Position numbers and translations under genes: made by a program. Source: Oscillospiraceae bacterium (lineage in GTDB: Bacteria > Bacillota > Clostridia > Oscillospirales > Oscillospiraceae). Taken from it: DNA of 34,466 bases. Positions 24,639 to 34,466 of this stretch are shown one piece after another; positions within the stretch are counted from its first letter, which is position 1, and the number at the start of each line of letters is the position of its first letter. The stretch lies in NCBI GenBank assembly GCA_017405865.1, contig JAFQZN010000012.1, positions 1 through 34,466 on the forward strand, given 5' to 3'. A model generated the notes under the pieces. That model was given only the letters and a program-made list of their open reading frames with translations. It did not search any database and was not told the origin of the DNA.

Positions 24639-25550
24639 TTATACTTCCTCTGCGAAAAAATCACTGTCGATCTTTTTGACCTCGTAAACTTCCTCTACGG
24701 AAACGCCTACGTTGTGCTTAATCATCAATCTAGTTAATGCCAGACCATCAACCAGAACTACCTTTGCTCCAAGAAGATTGGCGGCATACTGCAATGCGCC
24801 GGAGGAGAATTTCGCAGTCGTGATGAATAAGCCTTTTTGCGCCTGCTGCCCTTGAAGAGCGCCGACGAATCTTTGGATTTCCTGTCGCCCAACGGTCTGC
24901 CCCGCAGCCCATTGCTTTGCCTGAATGTAGATATGGCTGAATCCAAGTTGATCTTCTTTTATGATACCGTCAATGCCTCCGTCGTTGGACTGCTGCGTTA
25001 CCATTCCGGCTTCCTCAATTCCGCTTCCATATCCCATTTTCAGAAGCAGCTTTACCACAAGCCGCTCAAATTCGACCGGCGTCAGCTTCATCACTTCGTC
25101 CATCAGCTGGCTGGCTAAAGCGGCGTTGACCTTCTGATATGCAGAAGCCAATACTTCCATCGGAGATTCTTCTTTTTCTACGGATGGCTCATCGGCAATA
25201 CCTTCGGTGGTTACGCTGTGAAATGCTTTGAATTCGTCTGATTTTTCAAGGTATTCCAGATCAATCCTTTCTCCTGAGGCAAGAGCTTTTCTGCCGACAT
25301 CTGTGATTTTGTATTTTCCACGGTGCGGTGTTTCAATTAGCCCAGCTTTGTCAAGATAGGTCCGCGCCCATGCGACACGGTTGTCAAATGTCCGCTGTGT
25401 GCCGCTTGGGAGCATCTCTGCTAAATCCGCATCCGACAAGCCCATAGACTTCGAGATGATCCCCCGAACCTCTTTTGCCGTGTGGAGTTCTCCGTCATTT
25501 ACGGCGCTTAAAAACAATTCAAAGAATTCAAAAAACTTCGGCACCGCCAT
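24639..25550 (-). CDS. mrr: Mrr-family restriction endonuclease (type IV)
   Basis: A 303-aa enzyme expected to cut methylated foreign DNA. The N-terminal third is a winged-helix region (TFDNRVAWARTYLDKAGLIETPHRGKYKITDVGRKAL at about 54-90). The C-terminal third is the Mrr catalytic domain: MKLTPVEFERLVVKLLLKMGYG, NDGGIDGIIKEDQLGFSHIYIQAKQW, which supplies the D/E-x(n)-QxK nuclease signature (D of GGIDG and K of QAKQW), and FVGALQGQQAQKGLFITTAKF. Length equals E. coli Mrr. The ATG has AAGGAG upstream, and the promoter resembles consensus. No methylase is adjacent, as expected for a modification-dependent nuclease. Position next to a tRNA suggests acquired defence. Confidence 0.93.
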   Translation of the reverse strand: MAVPKFFEFFELFLSAVNDGELHTAKEVRGIISKSMGLSDADLAEMLPSGTQRTFDNRVAWARTYLDKAGLIETPHRGKYKITDVGRKALASGERIDLEYLEKSDEFKAFHSVTTEGIADEPSVEKEESPMEVLASAYQKVNAALASQLMDEVMKLTPVEFERLVVKLLLKMGYGSGIEEAGMVTQQSNDGGIDGIIKEDQLGFSHIYIQAKQWAAGQTVGRQEIQRFVGALQGQQAQKGLFITTAKFSSGALQYAANLLGAKVVLVDGLALTRLMIKHNVGVSVEEVYEVKKIDSDFFAEEV

Positions 25551-25598
25551 GGTTTTTCACTCCTTGGAACAAGATGATGTATGTCCTTGCTGCGAATA

Positions 25599-25627
25599 AT
25601 CATATCACAGAATCCGGAGCATCTCAA
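25599..25627 (-). promoter_or_regulatory. Promoter of mrr
   Basis: On the minus strand TTGAGA (25622-25627), 17 bases, TATGAT (25599-25604). Confidence 0.6.
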
Positions 25628-25644
25628 CAATTCATTTCGCACAT

Positions 25645-25773
25645 TCGACAAGCTCGCCTCCTTCGGCTATAATGGTACCAGAAGGAGGCGATTGCTAAGT
25701 GTTGGACATCTGTCAGTTCATAATGTCAAATTACTTCAATCTATATTTCGTCCTTCTGCCGCTGCCCTCCTGA
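25645..25773 (+). pseudogene. Orphan promoter, ribosome binding site and truncated start of a gene
   Basis: TCGACA (25645-25650), 17 bases, TATAAT (25668-25673), then AAGGAGG (25683-25689) and a frame from GTG 25699 that gives only 24 codons (MLDICQFIMSNYFNLY...) before stopping at 25773 inside the end of the convergent AlbA_2 gene. The arms TCGCCTCCTTC and GAAGGAGGCGA around the minus-10 form a hairpin that would occlude the ribosome binding site. It looks like the surviving 5' end of a lost gene. Confidence 0.4.
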
Positions 25774-27023
25774 ATAATGCGTCCTTCCTGCAGCATTCTT
25801 TTCAAGATTCTGCTGGATGTCGCCTGACTGACGCCAAGAAGCACGTCCACTTCGGAGCGGGTAATGTAATCATGGCTTTGCAGATAGGTTAAGATTGTCT
25901 GCTCCGAGCCGGATGCAGTGCCTCTCGCGGCAGCCACATTTCTGTTCGGCAGAGTGATTTTAAATGCGTTGTTTGTAACTTCGATGGTCGGCTGACAGCC
26001 GCAGTCTTTGTAGGCCTTCATAATTTTTTGCATGCCCGTGCCGTATGCCTCGATCAAATCCAGGCGATAGAAAACAGCAGCAAGTTTTGGATTGCGGCAG
26101 ACGGACAGGCCAAGCATAATATCTTCGACGGTAACGCCGTCTATCAGTCCGCCGACGGAAACAAACTCGATCCGATCAGCGTACACGCTGACCAAAGTGC
26201 TGGCACTATAGGAATAGTCCCGATGAACGATAGAATTGAGCATTGCTTCGCGCAGTGCTTCCTCCGGGTAATCCCGTATATCCTTGCGGTAAAGTCCTTC
26301 AAAGACCGCCTTCGTTTGATTTCGTAGCTCCAGATAGGCGTAAAGCTCCTCCATCTGCCGGAACAGAGAACCGCTGAACTCCCGCCGATCCTGAAACACT
26401 GTTTTATCCAAGCCGGAGAATGTCGCCGCCTTGATCTCGCCGGGGCATTGATCAGAGAGAAGATATCCCAAATTGGAATACACCCCGTCCGGTGAAATCA
26501 ATCCAAGCGTCTGCCGCTGCACTGGGCCGAAATCAACGTCTCGCTTTTGGAATTCCGCTTCTGCGGCAGCGAAAGTCAGTTCCTGCTCCAAAGAACGCAT
26601 ATCTTCAAAACGGTCGCCGTCCGTTTCCTTGATCATCCGACGAATTGCCGTATCCGTAGACGGATCGGTCGATGCTCCGTTGCGAACATATACGCCGCTG
26701 GGTTTCAATCCCTTTGCCGCAAGATAGTAGGGACGGTCTGCTCCCTTTTGGACCGTGACCGCTATTATTTCTTTTCCGTCCAGCATTCGGATCTCATAAC
26801 GGGCAAACATCGTAACGTCCGGCTTGATGGAGTCTCTGACCATGTTGTTGATACGCAGCAATGCCTCATCCGGTTCGGAAATACCGATAGCAGTACCATC
26901 GTCCGCGACGCCGATCCATAATTCTCCGCCGCGGGTGTTGGCAAACGCAACAACCTCCTTGCACAGATCGCTTACGATTTCAGATTTGAATTCCAGCGTT
27001 TCGCTTTCCATCCTGATTGACAT
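25731..27023 (-). CDS. AlbA_2/Schlafen-type ATP-binding regulator with C-terminal winged helix
   Basis: A 430-aa protein of the 'putative DNA-binding domain (AlbA_2) plus HATPase_c_4' group. The first part, LEFKSEIVSDLCKEVVAFANTRGGELWIGVADDG, is the AlbA_2/Slfn signature with E and the GG-x-L-x-I-G-V-x-D motif. The middle, EALREAMLNSIVHRDYS, DRIEFVSVGGLIDGV, RNPKLAAVFYRLDLIEAYGTGMQKI, is the ATPase-like domain with the conserved N of MLNSIVHRDY. The end, SRSEVDVLLGVSQATSSRILKRMLQEG, is a winged helix. Such proteins are common on mobile elements and are thought to be regulators or defence components; the biochemical role is not settled. A near-perfect promoter filled with AATGATTA repeats suggests self-control. 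Confidence 0.88.
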   Translation of the reverse strand: MSIRMESETLEFKSEIVSDLCKEVVAFANTRGGELWIGVADDGTAIGISEPDEALLRINNMVRDSIKPDVTMFARYEIRMLDGKEIIAVTVQKGADRPYYLAAKGLKPSGVYVRNGASTDPSTDTAIRRMIKETDGDRFEDMRSLEQELTFAAAEAEFQKRDVDFGPVQRQTLGLISPDGVYSNLGYLLSDQCPGEIKAATFSGLDKTVFQDRREFSGSLFRQMEELYAYLELRNQTKAVFEGLYRKDIRDYPEEALREAMLNSIVHRDYSYSASTLVSVYADRIEFVSVGGLIDGVTVEDIMLGLSVCRNPKLAAVFYRLDLIEAYGTGMQKIMKAYKDCGCQPTIEVTNNAFKITLPNRNVAAARGTASGSEQTILTYLQSHDYITRSEVDVLLGVSQATSSRILKRMLQEGRIIQEGSGRRTKYRLK

Positions 27024-27040
27024 AGGAATCCCCTCACTTT

Positions 27041-27078
27041 CTAATCATCATTATAATCATTCTAATCATTCTTGTCAA
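27041..27078 (-). promoter_or_regulatory. Promoter of the AlbA_2 gene with AATGATTA repeat operator
   Basis: On the minus strand TTGACA (27073-27078), 17 bases, TATAAT (27050-27055). Three AATGATTA/ATGATTA direct repeats occupy the spacer, the minus-10 and the next ten bases, an arrangement typical of a repressor binding site. The 27079-27229 stretch upstream has nothing else identified. Confidence 0.65.
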
Positions 27079-27229: not shown

Positions 27230-29053
27230 TTACGCCGCTTGATCCAACGGCAGCGTCAGAGAATCACTATTAATGGGGAAGGTAAAGTAGGTATCGGGAT
27301 ACGGCTCATGATCCAGAGTAAAGTGCCACCATTCCTCCTCAAGAGGACGGAAGCCATGCTTCATCATTACCTCGCGCAACAGCATGCGCATGGCGTACTG
27401 TTCTTCCGTAATATCCGTATAATCCGGGTGGCTGAGCTCCCCAAAGAAGTCAAAGGTCCCGCCCATGTCCACCTCGCGCTCCGTGTTCATATCGAAAAGC
27501 GTCAGGTCGACTGTGCTGCCGCGGCTGTGACCGGAGTGCTCGGCGATATAGCCCTGCGGGAAGAGCACGTCCTTGTCGAGATCCGGATAGAAGTATTCCT
27601 TCATACGGGTATCCTCCGTATCCAAGGCCCAGTTCATGAAATGCGTCACGGCCATCTGCGGGCGATAGGCGTCAAAGATCTTTAGCCGGTAGCCCTTACT
27701 CATCAGCTCGTCGCTGACCTCTTTGAGCGCAGCGGCCGCCTCTGTCGTCAGCATAGCCAGCGGCTCTTCATATCCGTCGATCCGGTCGCCGACGAAGTTG
27801 TATGTGGAGTAATAGCGGATCTCCAGAATGGCGTCAGGCACGGCTTCGCTCAGGAGGACGAAGTCCGAAGAATCATCCGAAAGCGTCACATCGGACGTCG
27901 GCGGCTGCGGGTCATCCGATGACGCTGCCTGATACCAGGAGGCGTCAGACCAATCGCGCTCCTGATACTGCAGGTCGGCTCGGGTAATCCCGTCCGCGTA
28001 GATTTGAGCAAAGTCATTTTTCATGGAGATCGGAATATATCCCTTCGCCTCGTAATCAGCAGACTTTGTCGCCCAGTCCTGGGCGCCCCATTCTCTGACG
28101 TCGTCATCGGCAACGATCATATATGCCTGCGCACGATGCGGATTTCTGCTGTCGATGGTATAGTTCATCATGCTGGTATCGCTTCCGCTGTTTCCGAAGG
28201 CCAGCACGGGACGCTGCCCGATCTCCCGCTCGATCCATATCGATTTGTTGGCGTTGAGGTTTTTCTGGATAAAGCCGCCGGTGAGAACCAGCTCGTCGCC
28301 GTTCTCATATTTGAAATTCATGTTGGATGCTTCAGTCTCGTGTCCGGGCTGCTTCACTTCAAAAGCGGTTCCGATCACATGGTTCGGCGTCACGTAATCC
28401 CGGATGGGAGAGCTCGCCACAATGGCACGGGTCGTGGTACGTTCGGTGCCGCTGATCACGTAGATCGTGAAGCCGTTATCGTACAGATACTTGACCAGCT
28501 CCACCATCGGGAGATAGAAATTATCAATGTACCGCATGTTGTTGAAGCTCTCGGTCTTCTTTTTGCCGAACTCGATCGCGTATTGATAGAGCTCCTCCAC
28601 CGTCATCCCGGCATAGGCTCTGGCGAAGTTTCTGGCAAGGTTCTCGTCTGCAACATACCCCGGCTTTATGGACGCCGCGATCTGCTTCAATTCATCCGAT
28701 ACGCTTTCCGGATGGTCGACCAGACAGTACTCGATAAACATCATCGTGTCGTAATAGGTATAATACGTTTCACAGGTCAGCGTACCGTCCATATCGAACA
28801 CGGCAATGCGGTCTTCCACAGGAATATAGTCGCTGCCGCTTTCCTCTGTGACAGTTTGCACGTAGGAAATCAACGCATCTCTGGCCGCAGAATCGGTCGA
28901 CCAGGAGGCCAGAGCCTCCTCGCCGCTGACCGGCCGCTTCGTCTCGGGCCGATCACGAGAGACCAAATAAACGCACCAAATTGCGAGCGCCAGGCAAAGG
29001 ATCATTGCCGCCACAGCAACAACGCGCCAGACATGAACCGTTTTCTTTTCCAT
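27230..29053 (-). CDS. Membrane-anchored fusion of HAD phosphatase and VanX-type D-Ala-D-Ala dipeptidase
   Basis: A 607-aa protein with one N-terminal membrane segment (VVAVAAMILCLALAIWCVYL, 11-30), so the rest is probably outside the cell. Domain 1 (about 75-370) is a haloacid-dehalogenase-type phosphatase: IAVFDMDGTLT (nucleophile D87, D89), VISGTE (S201), K263/K270 area and AFGNSGSD (D292). Domain 2 (about 395-590) is an M15D/VanX peptidase: RLKIFDAYRPQMAV, SGHSRGSTVDLTLFD (H509, D516) and EEEWWHFTL (E574, H577), the full zinc and catalytic set. Domain 2 should cleave D-Ala-D-Ala; domain 1 may remove phosphate from a wall or lipid precursor. This order is not one that I know as standard. 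No vanH, vanA or vanRS genes are nearby. GGAGGAG precedes the ATG. Confidence 0.88.
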   Translation of the reverse strand: MEKKTVHVWRVVAVAAMILCLALAIWCVYLVSRDRPETKRPVSGEEALASWSTDSAARDALISYVQTVTEESGSDYIPVEDRIAVFDMDGTLTCETYYTYYDTMMFIEYCLVDHPESVSDELKQIAASIKPGYVADENLARNFARAYAGMTVEELYQYAIEFGKKKTESFNNMRYIDNFYLPMVELVKYLYDNGFTIYVISGTERTTTRAIVASSPIRDYVTPNHVIGTAFEVKQPGHETEASNMNFKYENGDELVLTGGFIQKNLNANKSIWIEREIGQRPVLAFGNSGSDTSMMNYTIDSRNPHRAQAYMIVADDDVREWGAQDWATKSADYEAKGYIPISMKNDFAQIYADGITRADLQYQERDWSDASWYQAASSDDPQPPTSDVTLSDDSSDFVLLSEAVPDAILEIRYYSTYNFVGDRIDGYEEPLAMLTTEAAAALKEVSDELMSKGYRLKIFDAYRPQMAVTHFMNWALDTEDTRMKEYFYPDLDKDVLFPQGYIAEHSGHSRGSTVDLTLFDMNTEREVDMGGTFDFFGELSHPDYTDITEEQYAMRMLLREVMMKHGFRPLEEEWWHFTLDHEPYPDTYFTFPINSDSLTLPLDQAA

Positions 29054-29206
29054 TCGTTTTTCTCCTCCTCGGTTTGGCTTTTTTCACGGTGCGGCATCTC
29101 TCGCTTTTCGCTTAAGACGGATCGGGTCCTTTACGATTTCCTTTACCATAGAACGGCAATCCCTTGATCGGTTTGCACCTTGAAAAAGTCTCTTGTTCTG
29201 CACACC

Positions 29207-29212
29207 ATTATA
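29207..29212 (-). promoter_or_regulatory. Possible minus-10 for the HAD-VanX gene
   Basis: TATAAT read on the minus strand at 29207-29212, about 150 bases before the start codon; the matching minus-35 (TGGACT at 17 bases) is weak. Confidence 0.35.
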
Positions 29213-29274
29213 CCAAAAATGCAACGAAAAGTCCATCGGAACATTAGAAATCAGTTGCACATATAGATTTCATC

Positions 29275-29448
29275 CTATGCGCATTCAATTGCTTTAGTTT
29301 TTGCGGTCGGTGTGTAGTCCTCGCTCAAGCTATCGCACATCAAATCATCAAGCTTATTAAGAAGATCATTGATTTTGACGGTTTCCAGGTCGACATCCGG
29401 CAAATTATCCGATATTAATTCCTTTGTCGCTTCTGACATTTTCAGCAT
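29275..29448 (-). CDS. Small acidic protein (57 aa), unknown
   Basis: Begins MLKMSEATKELISDNLPDVD and continues LETVKINDLLNKLDDLMCDS before ending with AKTKAIECA: helical, acidic, soluble. AAAGGAGG lies seven bases before the ATG, which is strong support for translation. It lies between the HAD-VanX gene and the attachment-site-like sequence. No terminator separates it from the HAD-VanX gene, so the two may share a transcript. Small acidic proteins beside integration sites are often leftovers of phage or conjugative elements; no function is visible. Confidence 0.6.
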   Translation of the reverse strand: MLKMSEATKELISDNLPDVDLETVKINDLLNKLDDLMCDSLSEDYTPTAKTKAIECA

Positions 29449-29501
29449 TCTTATTCCTCCTTTAGTGGGTTGGTTTGAATTAGAATCCCGGTGTCAGGAT
29501 T

Positions 29502-29545
29502 GCTGCCAAAAAGAGCCACCCGGAAGGGTGGCTCTTTTTGGCAGC
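29502..29545. terminator. Perfect 20-bp-stem bidirectional terminator
   Basis: Arms 29502-29521 and 29526-29545 are exact complements around GGAA, with core AAAAAGAGCCACCC and GGGTGGCTCTTTTT. Works on both strands. In the tRNA reading of 29539-29561 it is the tRNA's own terminator. Confidence 0.85.
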
Positions 29546-29561
29546 GGGTGAAGGATTCGAA
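29539..29561 (-). other. tRNA 3'-end-like fragment, candidate attachment site
   Basis: On the minus strand the sequence runs TTCGAATCC, TTCACCCGCT, then GCCA: a T-loop, the 3' half of a T stem, seven acceptor-stem bases, discriminator G and CCA. The bases before the T-loop do not form the 5' half of the T stem, as expected where an integrated element replaced the rest of a tRNA gene. The terminator directly follows CCA. Confidence 0.5.
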
Positions 29562-29563
29562 GT

Positions 29564-29797
29564 GCCCGAAGTGCTGTTATCCCGTGTTATAGCGTGCCTT
29601 TTTGCCTGTATTTTTTCCCTTTTCGACCGTTCGACCTGTTACCTTCTACCCCCTGATGTTACCCAGTACCACCCCGTTTAAGGGAAAAATAAGGGCAACT
29701 TTCTCTCACAGAATTCACGTCAAATATTCAAATAACAGCCGCACAGCGGATACTATTTCAGATATTTCTTAGATTTAAATGCTGATATTAATTATCT
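29564..29797. other. Gene-free stretch beside the attachment-like site
   Basis: No gene is supported. It contains the inverted pair TTTTTCCCTT (29612-29621) and AAGGGAAAAA (29680-29689), and a direct repeat of CGACC at 29624-29635. Such arrangements near an element end may be recombinase arm sites, but this is speculation. Confidence 0.3.
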
Positions 29798-30277
29798 TTA
29801 CGGTTTATCAATCTCCGCCGCAAACTGTTCGAGTTTTGCGGCGTTTTCCCTGCTGTTTTTGTGTTTCCTGTCCAGCAGCGACACGGTATGCTTCAGATTC
29901 GGCAGCAGCTTCGTGATCGCGGCCAGGCCCTTTTTCGTTTCCCCGCCGCCGCTCAGGAAGAACAGGGACGTAACCTTTGCCGCCGCGGCTTCATCCTGCA
30001 GGAAGGCGTTGATCGCGGGAACGCCCTTGCTGTTCCAGATCGGCGAACCGAGAATGATCTCGTCATACCCGCTGAGATCCTTTCCAAGCGGCTTCAGTTT
30101 GGGAATATGGTGCATCATGACCTGCCCGCCGCCCACAAGGATCTGCGCCGCGAAACGCTTCGGCATGGGCTTCTCGGTCTCCAGCTTCAACAAGTCCGCC
30201 CCCAGCTTTCCGGCGAGCTGCTTTGCGGCATCCTCGGTGTTGCCCGATAAGGAATAATAAGCGACTAATCTGTTCAT
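29798..30277 (-). CDS. Flavodoxin-family protein
   Basis: A 159-aa FMN-binding electron carrier. MNRLVAYYSLSGNTEDAAKQLA contains the phosphate-binding loop (SLSGNT), YDEIILGSPIWNSKGVPAINAFL the second FMN loop with the G-S-P-I-W motif, and LFFLSGGGETKKG the third. It belongs to the short flavodoxin-like group (PF12682-type) common in gut anaerobes rather than to classical long-chain flavodoxins. GGAGGAT precedes the ATG. Its promoter diverges from the truncated gene on the other strand. GC content matches the core genome. Confidence 0.9.
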   Translation of the reverse strand: MNRLVAYYSLSGNTEDAAKQLAGKLGADLLKLETEKPMPKRFAAQILVGGGQVMMHHIPKLKPLGKDLSGYDEIILGSPIWNSKGVPAINAFLQDEAAAAKVTSLFFLSGGGETKKGLAAITKLLPNLKHTVSLLDRKHKNSRENAAKLEQFAAEIDKP

Positions 30278-30316
30278 CGGTATCCTCCAATCGATCTGCG
30301 TACAATCTGATAATTT

Positions 30317-30345
30317 ATTATAACAAATCTTACGAAAGGAAACAA
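30317..30345 (-). promoter_or_regulatory. Promoter of the flavodoxin gene
   Basis: On the minus strand TTGTTT (30340-30345), 17 bases, TATAAT (30317-30322). Confidence 0.6.
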
Positions 30346-30351
30346 GCCTAT

Positions 30352-30831
30352 ATGAAATGTCTTTTCAAATATCCCTGGGTCAAGCTGCCCCGGAACCGGA
30401 TCCCGGCAGGCAAAGGACTTATGGGCTCCTGGATGCGGCTGGCGGCGCGAGCGGCCTTTCGCAAGGGCGAGGGGCGCTACTGCAGATACAACAATCCCGT
30501 CGAACCCGGAATGTGGGTCGGCGGGATTGTCGGTCTCAAGGCCATTCTGGGCCTCAGGCGGCGGGACGCGGCCCTGAACGTGCTGCGGAAGCTGGAGGCT
30601 CTGGGTTTCCTTTCCTGGTCGCTGGACCCCTCCACCAAAAAGCTGAGCTACACCCTGTCAGACTGGCTCGCCCGCTTTTCCGGAGCCGAATGCCCGGACG
30701 GGGCCGTGTGCACCACCGAGGGCTACGGCTTCGTGTGTGTTTCACGGGAAATCACGCAGAGGCTTAATAGCGAGATGTCGATGTTTCTATTACTTCTAAT
30801 GTACGTAATGAAGCAGCATCTTATAAAATAA
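30352..30831 (+). CDS. Truncated mobile-element-type protein with foreign C-terminus
   Basis: The frame gives 159 aa. Residues 1-138 are GC-rich coding sequence: MKCLFKYPWVKLPRNRIPAG, then GMWVGGIVGLKAILGLRRRDAA and NVLRKLEALGFLSWSLD, which looks like a winged helix, and CTTEGYGFVCVSREITQRL. I associate this style with proteins carried by conjugative elements of Ruminococcaceae but cannot name it. From about base 30766 the composition becomes AT-rich and the last 21 residues (NSEMSMFLLLLMYVM...) look unrelated. The gene is therefore cut at the left edge of the AT-rich segment. AAAGGAAAC precedes the ATG. Confidence 0.6.
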   Translation: MKCLFKYPWVKLPRNRIPAGKGLMGSWMRLAARAAFRKGEGRYCRYNNPVEPGMWVGGIVGLKAILGLRRRDAALNVLRKLEALGFLSWSLDPSTKKLSYTLSDWLARFSGAECPDGAVCTTEGYGFVCVSREITQRLNSEMSMFLLLLMYVMKQHLIK

Positions 30832-30839
30832 ATGCGTTA

Positions 30840-30868
30840 TTGACATTTATTTGGGACTATGGCATAGT
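30840..30868 (+). promoter_or_regulatory. Likely promoter of the nitrilase operon
   Basis: TTGACA (30840-30845), 17 bases, CATAGT (30863-30868). The minus-35 is perfect and the minus-10 is poor, as expected for a promoter that needs an activator or is kept low. Confidence 0.5.
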
Positions 30869-30910
30869 AATAACGGCGATTGAGTATATATAGAAAGAGA
30901 GAGAGTAAAT

Positions 30911-32302
30911 GTGAAAACTGAGGCATTCATGGATAAAGTTCAATTATCAAGGAACATATATTCATTTATCGTTGAACTGTATTGTTATTTGAGCAGAGAA
31001 AAGGAGCAGCTTTGGAAAAAAGAATACGAATTATTTTGCAACAAACAAACGGATGTATTAAAGAAGGTTCGTGCGATAACTGATACTATCCCATATGCGA
31101 CAAGAAATGATTTTTTTCCATGGAAAAAAGAGTGGGTGTCCGTTTTTCATAATAATATAGCTTATTCTGCATCAATTATTTTTCAAACACTAAAAAATTT
31201 CGACGATCTTATTCCCGATCTCTTCAAGCAATCAAAAAAAGTTGTTATTAGTCACGGACCACTTAACGATTATCGTGAGCAAGAAGGTTTTCTTTATGTT
31301 GCATCTCCAGCATCTTATCTTACAGCAATGTTCGAAAAAAACCATATCAGGAAAGGACGACAAACGGTTTCTGCCAAAAACACAGCGCTTTCCACTAGCT
31401 TTTCCCATTATTTTGTTGTTGAAAGGTCATTAGCAAATAAATATATCCCTATAGTGAATTGCTATAATAAAAGCATTTTTACTGACGGAAGGATAAAAAT
31501 ATGCTGCTGTCCTTTTAGTAGAGAAACATGGATTAATACTAAGGCGGGATCTAGTGGGGAATACTTTAGAGTTGAGTACGATAATGCAAATGAGGTTACA
31601 CATAATAATAGGATCATTGATTTGATAAGATACCTTGACGAACAGGGAGCAAACATTGTGACATTCCCAGAATTAGTCCTAAATAATCGTTCTCTCTGGG
31701 AAATAAAGTCATTCCTTTTACACGCAGAATTACATAATCTTAAGCTAATCTTTACTGGTAGCAACTGGAACAATGATGAGTTAAACAATATATCATACAT
31801 AATAAGCAGAGATGGGACAGTACTATTGAAGCATCAGAAGAAAGTTGGTTATAAATATTATTCTCACGAGTCAAATCAATACATCATAGAGGACCTAGAT
31901 CCAGATGCATTTTTGTCATTCCTCGATATTCCTGGATTAGGTAGAACAGTGTACAATATTTGTGCCGACTACAATGATGATCTAATTCAATTGTTATGCT
32001 CTTCATTGATGGAAACGGACATGTATTTTATTGCCGCATTTACACCAGATACATATTTAATGCTGGAAAGAGCAAAATCAAATGCAGTACTTAAAGGGGA
32101 AACTACAATATTAACAAATGCATGTGCTGCGGCAAAAGACGATCAAGCAATAAGTTTTGTCGTAAAGCCGTTGGTGGAAAGTAGACATTTATTATCAGAT
32201 CAAGTTGTTTTTATGAGAAAAAAGGACTGCACTTCCTGCGGTAGTAACAACAAAAATTGTGAAATTTTACAAATAAGTCTTGAAATGGAGAGCAATATTT
32301 GA
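30911..32302 (+). CDS. Nitrilase-superfamily (CN-hydrolase) protein with long N-terminal extension
   Basis: A 463-aa protein in AT-rich DNA. Residues about 195-435 form a carbon-nitrogen hydrolase domain with the catalytic triad in order: glutamate E254 in IVTFPELVLN, lysine K307 in GTVLLKHQKK, and cysteine C351 in NICADYNDD. Spacing fits the superfamily. Residues 1-190 are an unrecognised, mostly helical extension containing ELYCYLSREKEQLWKKE. The tail carries a cysteine cluster, CTSCGSNNKNC, possibly metal-binding. Ordinary nitrilases or amidases have no such extension. Nitrilase domains are known in one defence setting, the DRT type 1 (UG1) reverse-transcriptase-nitrilase fusions, but no reverse transcriptase motif is present here. 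The start is GTG at 30911 behind GAGAGAGAG; ATG at 30929 is an alternative. First gene of a three-gene operon. Confidence 0.85.
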   Translation: MKTEAFMDKVQLSRNIYSFIVELYCYLSREKEQLWKKEYELFCNKQTDVLKKVRAITDTIPYATRNDFFPWKKEWVSVFHNNIAYSASIIFQTLKNFDDLIPDLFKQSKKVVISHGPLNDYREQEGFLYVASPASYLTAMFEKNHIRKGRQTVSAKNTALSTSFSHYFVVERSLANKYIPIVNCYNKSIFTDGRIKICCCPFSRETWINTKAGSSGEYFRVEYDNANEVTHNNRIIDLIRYLDEQGANIVTFPELVLNNRSLWEIKSFLLHAELHNLKLIFTGSNWNNDELNNISYIISRDGTVLLKHQKKVGYKYYSHESNQYIIEDLDPDAFLSFLDIPGLGRTVYNICADYNDDLIQLLCSSLMETDMYFIAAFTPDTYLMLERAKSNAVLKGETTILTNACAAAKDDQAISFVVKPLVESRHLLSDQVVFMRKKDCTSCGSNNKNCEILQISLEMESNI

Positions 32303-32354
32303 TACAATATGAATGAACTACACGCGAACTACATCTTCACCAGGAGGGAGTTTC

Positions 32355-33230
32355 ATGGTTGACAAATTATTAAATATCAGCAGTAGCATTTTTTCCGATG
32401 ATGATAGTGAAGCGATAGAAGAATTTAGCAATATTCTTTTTGAAACTATAAAGGACGCGATTTCTCAAGGTAGTTTAAACACAATATTTAAAGAACTCAA
32501 AAAAATCACAGATTTATATGAACGTGTTAGTAATTTACTCGATATTCAAGAAATTAAAAATAAAAAGTGTTTCTATTTTGGCTACATCATTGCGCTATCT
32601 ACAATAGGAGAAAACCTTGCTAATGCAGGCTTGGAAAAAAGCCAGGTAACAGAGATATTATCAAATTATTCTCTTTTGCTGCCTATTTTAAATATCATAG
32701 CAAAAAAAGATACTATTTCTGGGGTTGATTTAAAGAAAGCCACAGGACTTAAGAGTAATAATCTGTCTAACTTTATGCGCAGGATAAAGCAATTTGAGTT
32801 AATCAGTATACACAAAGTCGGAACGACAAATTATTATTCGTTAACAAAGAAAGGCAGGCAATTCATTGAATATAGTAGTCGAACAGATAATTCATCGATA
32901 ACGCAAAATCAAGCAATAAAACAATTGCTGTATCAAGTACTTGATGAATTATCAAATCAACTGTTACTAGGTAGACCAAGTGCAATTCCTGTACTGCAAA
33001 CAATTAATAGTGATAAAAACATCCAGATAAATGTTGATAGTTTATTAAAATATAAGATAGAGTCAACTTTTAGTAGCCGTGATTACTATTTGCGTAAAAA
33101 GTTTCAAACTTTCGCTGGCGCAACAAAAGGAGAGGAGTCTTTGACAGATTATTCTGACTGGGATGATCAATATTTAAGCATAAAAGAACACGAGCTTGTG
33201 GTTTTTTCAGAAATATCTTATTTTGACTAA
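32355..33230 (+). CDS. Winged-helix protein of the nitrilase operon
   Basis: A 291-aa protein, no known family recognised. The N-terminal third (SSSIFSDDDSEAIEEF, then FKELKKITDLYERVSNLLDI) is helical. Residues about 108-174 form a winged helix-turn-helix: LPILNIIAKKDTISGVDLKK, KSNNLSNFMRRIKQFELIS, then the wing IHKVGTTNYYSLTKKG, a MarR/ArsR-like pattern. The C-terminal region (SRDYYLRKKFQTFAGATKGE) is of mixed type. A DNA- or RNA-sensing or regulatory role for the operon is plausible. ATG at 32355 is chosen because AGGAGGGAG lies just upstream; 52 bases separate it from the nitrilase stop. Codon usage is AT-rich like its neighbours. Confidence 0.82.
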   Translation: MVDKLLNISSSIFSDDDSEAIEEFSNILFETIKDAISQGSLNTIFKELKKITDLYERVSNLLDIQEIKNKKCFYFGYIIALSTIGENLANAGLEKSQVTEILSNYSLLLPILNIIAKKDTISGVDLKKATGLKSNNLSNFMRRIKQFELISIHKVGTTNYYSLTKKGRQFIEYSSRTDNSSITQNQAIKQLLYQVLDELSNQLLLGRPSAIPVLQTINSDKNIQINVDSLLKYKIESTFSSRDYYLRKKFQTFAGATKGEESLTDYSDWDDQYLSIKEHELVVFSEISYFD

Positions 33231-33243
33231 AGGAGAGGATATC

Positions 33244-33873
33244 ATGCTTTTTGAATTATTTATTAATCAAATAACTCAAACTTCTTCTGAACAAGACGTA
33301 GATTCTCTTATTCGTTCCAATAAAAGGATCTTTCATCAGGATATTACCACACTCTGCGAACAGGTACGTTCAGGAGAAAACATTGAGCACATCTTATCCA
33401 AACTACATGAGAGCATAATAAATCAATATTTGTTTGATAATATTGAAAAAGAGTTACGGTCTGAAGCGGCATCCTATCTCGAATCAGAATACATTCGTCT
33501 AATGACTAACTCGGAATATGAGTCTTTTTTATCTTTCTCACTGAATAATTTAATAATAAACAAAGCGCCAGAAGCAGCAGTAATGGAACAGCTTCAGATT
33601 AATAAACAACAGTTTGGATACCTGCTTAAATTTTTAAATACTGCTTTTGATATGGCTGTTATCAGAAGATTTACAAAAGAGAACTTTACCTCGTCTATGT
33701 TTGGTATGTTCCGACTTGATGAAGATAAAACTAATTATACTTGGAATCTGTTTGAAGAGAATAAAAGCACACTTACAACAATAGCAATTTTAAATTCAAT
33801 TGTTTCAATACGAAGGATTAATACAAACATGGAGATTATTAAAGACTGTCTTTGGAGCCTCATAGATGAATAG
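33244..33873 (+). CDS. Unknown helical protein of the nitrilase operon
   Basis: A 209-aa protein starting MLFELFINQITQTSSEQDVD. It is predicted mostly alpha-helical by eye, with acidic stretches (NIEKELRSEAASYLESEY) and a segment PEAAVMEQLQINKQQFGYLL that could be a helix-turn-helix (the partner of QLQINKQQFGYLLKFLN). The end, TLTTIAILNSIVSIRRINTN, is hydrophobic-amphipathic but not a clear membrane span. No catalytic motif or family recognised. AGGAGAGG lies before the ATG, 13 bases after the stop of the previous gene, so translation is closely linked. It ends ahead of a strong terminator. Confidence 0.8.
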   Translation: MLFELFINQITQTSSEQDVDSLIRSNKRIFHQDITTLCEQVRSGENIEHILSKLHESIINQYLFDNIEKELRSEAASYLESEYIRLMTNSEYESFLSFSLNNLIINKAPEAAVMEQLQINKQQFGYLLKFLNTAFDMAVIRRFTKENFTSSMFGMFRLDEDKTNYTWNLFEENKSTLTTIAILNSIVSIRRINTNMEIIKDCLWSLIDE

Positions 33874-33957
33874 ATGGTTTTCTACTAGTAGTATTACTTT
33901 ACCAGTAGCCAGGTTTTGCAAACTATTCCAAACAAACTGTTATAGAATATACCTTCA

Positions 33958-34047
33958 GTTATCACTTGAAAAGTGATAACAAATTATCGAAAAATAAACA
34001 AGAGTTTGTCATTGTTATGTGAAATTGACAAACTCTTGTTTGTTTTT
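33958..34047 (+). terminator. Double hairpin and strong terminator ending the nitrilase operon
   Basis: First hairpin GTTATCACTT (33958-33967) with AAGTGATAAC (33971-33980). Second hairpin has perfect 16-bp arms 33996-34011 and 34026-34041, followed by GTTTTTG. The 33874-33957 stretch before it holds no gene. Confidence 0.85.
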
Positions 34048-34075
34048 GAAATTACTTTAAGAAAGAAGTTACACA

Positions 34076-34138
34076 GGTAGTGTCAAGGGTAGTGTCAAGT
34101 GGTAGTGGGTAGTGTGGTAGTGTCAAGGTAGTGTCAAG
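34076..34138 (+). repeat. GGTAGTG(TCAAG) short tandem array
   Basis: Six GGTAGTG copies, four extended to GGTAGTGTCAAG (34076, 34088, 34116, 34127), packed into 63 bases with spacing of 7-13. Spacing is too irregular and short for CRISPR. Confidence 0.8.
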
Positions 34139-34246
34139 TATTATGCGCAAATTAGTTTGCAGAAACTGATAGCAACGAAGCAATCCTGATATAATCGGGA
34201 GGGCGGGAGCCCTCATGTCATCCACACAGTGGGTCGGGAGATCGGG

Positions 34247-34281
34247 GTCAAGGACGGCGAAGCCGCATGCTTGTCCTTGAC
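34247..34281. terminator. Hairpin downstream of the IS256-family transposase
   Basis: GTCAAGGAC (34247-34255) pairs with GTCCTTGAC (34273-34281), about 25 bases beyond the transposase stop. No T run, so it is more likely a structural or protective hairpin. Confidence 0.45.
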
Positions 34282-34304
34282 GCCGTTCTTCCGGACTGCT
34301 ATGA

Positions 34305-34466
34305 TCAGCCAACCATAAGCGGCTGTTCCAGCGCATCCAAATGCTTCATATTCATATATTTCTTGTTGCCCCACTGCGTGCCGGCAACGTGCCGAAGCCT
34401 GGCGCAAACCAGCATCAACGCAGAATTTCCGTCCGGGAAGCAGCCGACCACTCTCGTTCTGCGCCG
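34305..34466 (-). CDS. IS256-family transposase, C-terminal end (partial)
   Basis: The frame enters from the right edge and ends TGA at 34305-34307. The 53 visible residues include RRRTRVVGCFPDGNSALMLV and CARLRHVAGTQWGNKKYMNM, followed by KHLDALEQPLMVG. RRTRVVGxFPDxxSALxL and the tail W-G-x-K-x-Y-M-x-M-x-x-L are hallmark C-terminal sequences of IS256/mutator-family transposases. It is GC-rich, unlike the operon it borders, so the insertion sequence belongs to the host lineage or another donor than the operon. Confidence 0.88.
   Translation of the reverse strand, partial: RRRTRVVGCFPDGNSALMLVCARLRHVAGTQWGNKKYMNMKHLDALEQPLMVG

Follow-up and report, generated by a model that had tools for sequence, protein, structure and literature searches.

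A 2026 study of the defence-associated reverse transcriptase (DRT) system DRT1 reports that immunity is lost when the nitrilase cysteine is mutated and that abortive infection requires this catalytic cysteine; it describes nitrilases as unprecedented among anti-phage defences and does not settle which substrate the enzyme has (PMC13275509). Reverse transcriptases (RTs) of the UG5 group are reported to carry or neighbour nitrilases (PMC8934634, PMC9122126). Here we analyse a stretch of 34,466 nucleotides from an Oscillospiraceae bacterium (contig JAFQZN010000012.1 of assembly GCA_017405865.1; hereafter, the window), in which a nitrilase-like gene heads a group of three same-strand open reading frames (ORFs) at 30911-33873:

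30911..32302, + strand: gene 1, 463 amino acids, GTG start; nitrilase-superfamily protein
32355..33230, + strand: gene 2, 291 amino acids, ATG start behind AGGAGG; winged-helix protein
33244..33873, + strand: gene 3, 209 amino acids, ATG start behind AGGAGAGG; without credible family

The intergenic gaps are 52 bases between genes 1 and 2 and 13 bases between genes 2 and 3, exactly as given in a preliminary description of this DNA, which had set the unit at 30840..34047. Its three genes stand, while the coding part begins at 30911 and not at 30840. According to the data presented below the nitrilase, the winged helix-turn-helix (wHTH) protein and the third gene form a genuine and apparently undescribed mobile cassette, since their order recurs, their neighbours differ, the cassettes are AT-rich and the protein tree intermingles two host families. 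The preliminary description had not recognised the set as a named system, and no name for it emerged from Pfam, PADLOC, NCBIfam or PHROGs, or from the literature on nitrilases in phage defence as judged by titles and abstract openings; the word “undescribed” rests on these sources.

Recurrence of the three-gene set

Iterated searches gathered 20 relatives of gene 1. Loci of the window's own lineage, designated A-type, number 13 in 12 genomes (the window, G275, G1221, G1072, G435, G1534, G1652 with two loci, G1376, G1647, G1578, G1507 and G1409), and at all 13 the nitrilase is followed by a wHTH gene and then by a further gene on the same strand, with gaps of -82 to 257 bases. Because this order recurs in 11 genomes other than the window's, the cassette is more than a chance neighbourhood. 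Two loci are weak points of the count: in G1221 the contig stops within the third gene, of which 122 residues are left, and in G1534 the nitrilase is split over two frames, of which the C-terminal piece alone was used, as is. Co-occurrence in the same order across genomes had been set beforehand as a check, and the set stands up to it. A six-frame search with the wHTH profile found the partner at every one of the 13 A-type loci and at none of the eight loci of a sister lineage described below. In 11 of the 12 A-type genomes (all but G1221) all 12 long wHTH matches lay within cassettes, the remainder being short generic winged-helix matches.

Occurrence is patchy. At a threshold of 1e-9 A-type loci were registered in 4 of the 300 host-family genomes sampled and in 8 of 348 from a second family; the five listed genomes of the same genus had none. 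Outside both families no A-type match was obtained in scans of 295, 398, 391 and 117 genomes, the first three of which used weaker queries and possibly missed divergent members. The other genomes of three scans (6 of 8, 35 of 36 and 11 of 11, all but G000 and G435) were set aside collectively, and not individually, as ordinary nitrilases or NAD synthetases on the basis of frame length and matched range; a Melioribacter candidate (L048) was recognised by eye as an NAD synthetase.

The protein tree needs three changes of host family, of which well-supported branches force at least two. With host labels shuffled, 185 of 500 trials need no more changes than this, so that the families are not visibly clustered on the tree, whose long branches leave the finer joins unsure; the two copies in G1652 fall on distant branches. 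All 12 measured A-type cassettes are AT-richer than the remainder of the retrieved stretch (sign test, p 0.0005), compared with 3 of 8 sister genes; a 3.3-kb contig (L050) was excluded from G+C and neighbour counts. Flanking genes vary between the A-type loci read and presumably include htpG with a pseudouridine synthase gene (G275), murI (G1534), smc/ftsY/ilvA (G1409), nucleotide-sugar genes (G1578) and glycosyltransferase genes (G1507).

The sister lineage comprises eight loci (G247, G1646, G1565, G1553, G1526 and three in Treponema) on one side of a 100/100 branch. Its proteins share with the A-type the homologous nitrilase part, the N-terminal part and the C-terminal cysteines, but gene 2 and the third gene are lacking: no homologue of either was found in the stretches examined at any of the eight loci. 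They also diverge slowly, with identities of 37-73% within the lineage (40-59% when the Treponema proteins are compared with the rest) and with end branches of 0.2-0.64 against 0.7-3.1 for the A-type. Often they stand beside genes that we take to encode NUDIX or signalling proteins: a presumed NUDIX gene adjoins the nitrilase at four of eight loci and lies 3.5 kb off at a fifth, and several loci carry what appear to be SpoIIE-type phosphatase, STAS or RsbW-like genes. Operons of this signalling type (L005 2538-4901, L045 6078-11386, L047 8761-13069, L064 1-2014 and L066 7681-9858) occur in Treponema as well as in relatives of the window's host. The sister lineage thus has the look of an amidase with a housekeeping or signalling role, and against its conservation the speed and patchiness of the A-type stand out. 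A housekeeping amidase with a fixed metabolic neighbour, named in advance as a finding that would speak against a dedicated module, fits part of the sister lineage and not the lineage of the window.

Properties of the three proteins

The preliminary assignment of gene 1 to the nitrilases is borne out by its intact catalytic residues. E254, K310, E327 and C351 are invariant in all 19 proteins aligned, which are the window protein, 11 further A-type members and 7 sister members (L064, cut by its contig, and L068, with the nitrilase split over two frames, were omitted); E327 was inferred to be the second glutamate of the tetrad from its location after the lysine. In the C-terminal cluster C440/C443/C450 two cysteines are invariant and the third is present in 18 of the 19. 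The tetrad is kept even though identity among A-type nitrilases is only about 15-40%. Gene 1 gets a credible name from none of the Pfam, PADLOC, NCBIfam and PHROGs models (DUF2777, at E 0.02, was under the cut-off), phmmer matched it to no PDB chain, and Pfam CN_hydrolase detected 4 of the 19 members at E<=0.05 with a best value of 0.011, leaving the window protein unmatched. The family profile performs better: its best PDB matches are structures of NAD synthetase (7.5e-6) and NIT2 (1.3e-5), and a profile built without the window protein gives that protein 141 bits, the best of 100 shuffles reaching 8.2. The N-terminal part of about 190 residues is a family trait: in 14 of 15 rows it outscores the best shuffle (13.0 versus 8.0 in the window); with this part alone L076 is only narrowly above the best shuffle and L063 is not above it. 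Judged from sequence, gene 1 is a very divergent nitrilase-superfamily protein and likely an amide-cleaving enzyme.

The winged helix announced for gene 2 was found at about residues 109-170. This domain resembles regulators of the ArsR/MarR type; library models recognise it as a generic winged helix only, and the N- and C-terminal parts match no family. The whole protein of the window scores 58.9 bits against 5.7 for shuffles. Taken separately, the N-terminal part exceeds the best shuffle at 9 of 13 loci, the remaining four being L076, L069, L075 and the window.

Gene 3 is poor in helix breakers (2% P+G), and no library model gives it a credible family. Its Pfam DUF705 match (23.1 bits, cut-off 20.4) was judged to be chance, because 77 residues were matched in only one of 12 third proteins. 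Across A-type loci the third gene mostly has 202-232 codons, but its type changes: nine loci carry a beta type, three an alpha type, and the window neither. No homology was seen between alpha and beta (hhalign probability 0.7%), and the window protein gives 6.2 and 2.4 bits against the two types, where the top-scoring of 200 shuffles reaches 10.6 and 5.9. MAFFT columns likening it to the alpha type were left unused, their similarity not being above shuffles. In G1409 the third protein (L075 10288-11388) has 366 residues and a DUF1828-like C-terminal extension; the DUF1828 match, found in one of 12 third proteins, was assigned to this genome by length and place. This change is the most striking peculiarity of the set: a third gene that differs beyond recognition while the enzyme and the wHTH protein are kept fits a part under changing selection, for instance one facing phage products.

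Borders and neighbourhood of the locus

The abrupt change in composition reported earlier at about 30766 is real: the cassette contains 33.0% G+C and the rest of the window 56.8%, and the profile falls, within its resolution, at about 30.8 kb. The features delimiting the cassette are as follows:

30840..30868, + strand: promoter-like TTGACA-17-CATAGT with extended TG, a consensus match and candidate only
33990..34047, + strand: hairpin terminator, inverted repeat 33990-34011/34026-34047
30355..30831, + strand: left border, truncated gene of a mobile element, a 158-residue frame breaking off near the composition change
34305..34466, - strand: end of an IS256/Mutator-type transposase gene, truncated by the contig end

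One promoter and one strong terminator had been proposed for the operon. The terminator holds, with arms of 22 nucleotides that are 95% complementary and a T-rich 3' arm; it is missing from the list of the consensus scan because the loop limit of that scan was 8. A single promoter can only be presumed, since consensus sites are no commoner than in shuffled sequences (18 found, 15.8 expected). Both mobile remains suggested earlier were substantiated as well. On the left, an unannotated 9.8-kb record named “Bacteriophage sp.” shares 54% identity with residues 1-144 of the 158-residue frame; neither a match in plasmids nor a second copy in the window's genome was found. On the right, a Subdoligranulum plasmid has a 397-codon frame whose 3' part matches 34305-34466 with 75.9% identity; from its translation we take this frame to be an IS256/Mutator transposase. 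Between the terminator and this gene end lies a cluster of GTAGTGTCAAG-like repeats (34077-34140). Rfam gave no match at gathering score within 29000-34466. In five same-genus genomes the left flank was matched only partially, and the truncated gene and the nitrilase were both missing from the retrieved pieces; in one of them (L079) the gene left of the scar is present, and the truncated gene and the nitrilase are absent within the 1.5 kb examined. This comparison fits a gain of the cassette in the window's genome; a clean empty site was not found.

An mrr gene about 5 kb away had also been pointed out, and it was recovered at 24639-25550, 5.4 kb from the cassette (PADLOC mREase_IV, E 4e-71). 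At 24639-27023 this Mrr-type endonuclease adjoins a gene (25734-27044) that has a 22-bit match to the gene-2 profile and looks to us like an AlbA/Schlafen-type ATP-binding protein; together they are possibly a second small defence unit.

The expected proximity to known defence genes was found in part: such genes were recognised near 3 of 12 A-type loci, namely the window, G435 and G1072. G435 has a retron II-A pair (PADLOC RT_II-A 1.9e-107 and NDT_II-A 1.7e-81, placed at the locus by eye) and presumably FRG and AbiH genes, and G1072 has a stretch resembling DUF4297/ATPase by eye. The defence island beside the G435 cassette (L076 6200-14000) comprises a presumed FRG-domain gene, the retron II-A pair, a presumed AbiH-like gene and others. 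The count of three may be low, because PADLOC matches among the A-type neighbours to MTase_II, PDC-S01 and mad3, the last of these in three proteins, were not assignable to a locus. At 1e-12 PADLOC reported 84 families among 109 A-type neighbours (107 of the 112 called automatically plus two hand-added G435 genes, the retron RT and one more) and 12 among the 86 sister neighbours, all scanned. The former figure is inflated, because most of the 25 A-type families listed are RT models matching one protein, taken as the hand-picked G435 retron II-A RT, which underlies much of the count. Sister neighbours also hold AbiE genes (L046, by eye), PDC-S27 and mad3. Thus, the defence-island argument for the cassette is suggestive only.

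Possible function and relation to known nitrilase systems

The pattern described above leads us to favour, at somewhat below even chances, a mobile phage-defence system in which an amidase effector is controlled by genes 2 and 3. In such a system genes 2 and 3 would keep gene 1 off and would sense infection; in the case of gene 2, sensing would most likely depend on the DNA-binding winged helix. Once released or assembled, the gene 1 product could act as a nitrilase-superfamily amidohydrolase, hydrolysing an amide or other carbon-nitrogen bond of an essential metabolite, the loss of which would halt the infected cell (abortive infection). What the data establish is the gene content with its order and strand, the catalytic residues, the recurrence as a set, the mixed host families and the fast divergence; enzymatic activity, toxicity, the inhibiting partner, the trigger and the defence role itself are inferred. 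With more reserve, one can think of a new class of immunity, where a free-standing, polymerase-independent nitrilase kills and a winged-helix sensor is combined with an exchangeable phage-facing small partner, of which at least three third-gene types are seen.

Several results weigh against the proposed defence role. Five nitrilase queries found no match in plasmids and three found none in phage records, and six pattern scans of IMG/VR yielded nothing that was confirmed. No defence neighbour was recognised at 9 of 12 A-type loci, several of which lie between housekeeping genes, and the closest relatives, those of the sister lineage, stand partly within signalling-type operons. For gene 1 the AlphaFold2 model from a 4-row alignment was unusable (pLDDT, the predicted local distance difference test score, 36), and its fold assignment therefore rests on sequence. 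The N-terminal part of the window's gene 2 is not above the best shuffle (9.1 versus 11.9 bits), and its kinship is judged from the protein as a whole. For the window's gene 3 no homologue was detected, which leaves its location and length as the grounds for counting it in the set.

The same anatomy and patchy occurrence would be expected of a toxin-antitoxin or addiction module, in which a nitrilase toxin is restrained by genes 2 and 3, the wHTH protein is autoregulatory and the outcome is self-maintenance rather than phage defence. The resemblance of the wHTH domain to ArsR/MarR-type regulators, the closing terminator and the adjoining mobile remains agree with such a module, but the cassette has three genes, not two, and we know of no nitrilase toxin-antitoxin pair, so that we regard it as quite unlikely. 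Unlikely too, though deserving serious attention, is an amidase with an accessory role in metabolism or stress response and a regulator of its own, which might for instance scavenge or repair an amide metabolite. The conservation of the sister lineage between Treponema and the others, its presumed NUDIX and signalling neighbours and the NAD synthetase and NIT2 structures at the head of the profile matches speak for it; no common metabolic neighbour was seen at the A-type loci, which are moreover patchy, AT-rich, spread over mixed hosts and far faster in divergence.

It is also conceivable, if very improbable, that the cassette branched off from class 3 DRT systems (RT plus nitrilase), genes 2 and 3 having taken the place of the RT. 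The PADLOC RTasNitrilase model does score the family above ordinary nitrilases: 11 of the 19 members are detected at E<=0.05, the best at 2e-7 (28.4 bits, a sister protein) and the best A-type member at 23.5 bits, and ten ordinary nitrilases or NAD synthetases reach at most 12.4 bits. The window nitrilase, however, matches neither this nor any other PADLOC model, and no RT lies within the three-gene unit at any of the 13 A-type loci. The profile of 13 A-type nitrilases detects ordinary nitrilases with up to 58.7 bits and misses both RT-linked nitrilases tried, the fused L089 and the RT-adjacent L090, whose partners were called RTs from the PADLOC model, frame length and YVDD motif. Common descent with the DRT nitrilases is for this reason not established, and the earlier link to DRT1, taken as kinship, was not confirmed; it is possible that A-type and DRT nitrilases work alike. 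The same RT-nitrilase model also found a 636-residue protein (L091 6151-8061) with apparently two nitrilase halves, in a stretch where no RT was recognised.

If the defence reading is true, a compact cassette whose nitrilase acts independently of any reverse transcriptase would set effector and sensor apart, and would make substrate and toxicity directly testable in a laboratory strain. Even if the function is not defence, what remains is an apparently undescribed three-gene module that crosses host families and exchanges its third gene.

Compared with known systems, the nitrilase of the cassette shares a C-terminal nitrilase part and a similar length with the CARF-nitrilase model CARF_m7 of PADLOC (PDLC01989, 457 positions), which matches 9 of the 19 members, at best with 2.4e-11. 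The strong matches are sister proteins, and the one A-type match listed has E 0.033; for the three members listed the matches cover model positions 225-414 or less, the positions before 225 presumably being the CARF part, and the model also gives 18.6 bits on an ordinary nitrilase. With ordinary nitrilases, such as NIT2 and the glutaminase domain of NadE, A-type proteins have in common the catalytic tetrad and profile similarity, but they add about 190 N-terminal residues and the C-terminal cysteine cluster. With DRT1 and other class 3 UG-Abi systems (UG1, UG5) they share a nitrilase-superfamily domain, conserved catalytic residues and location in an accessory locus, whereas the A-type unit contains no reverse transcriptase and has instead a separate wHTH protein and a small third gene.

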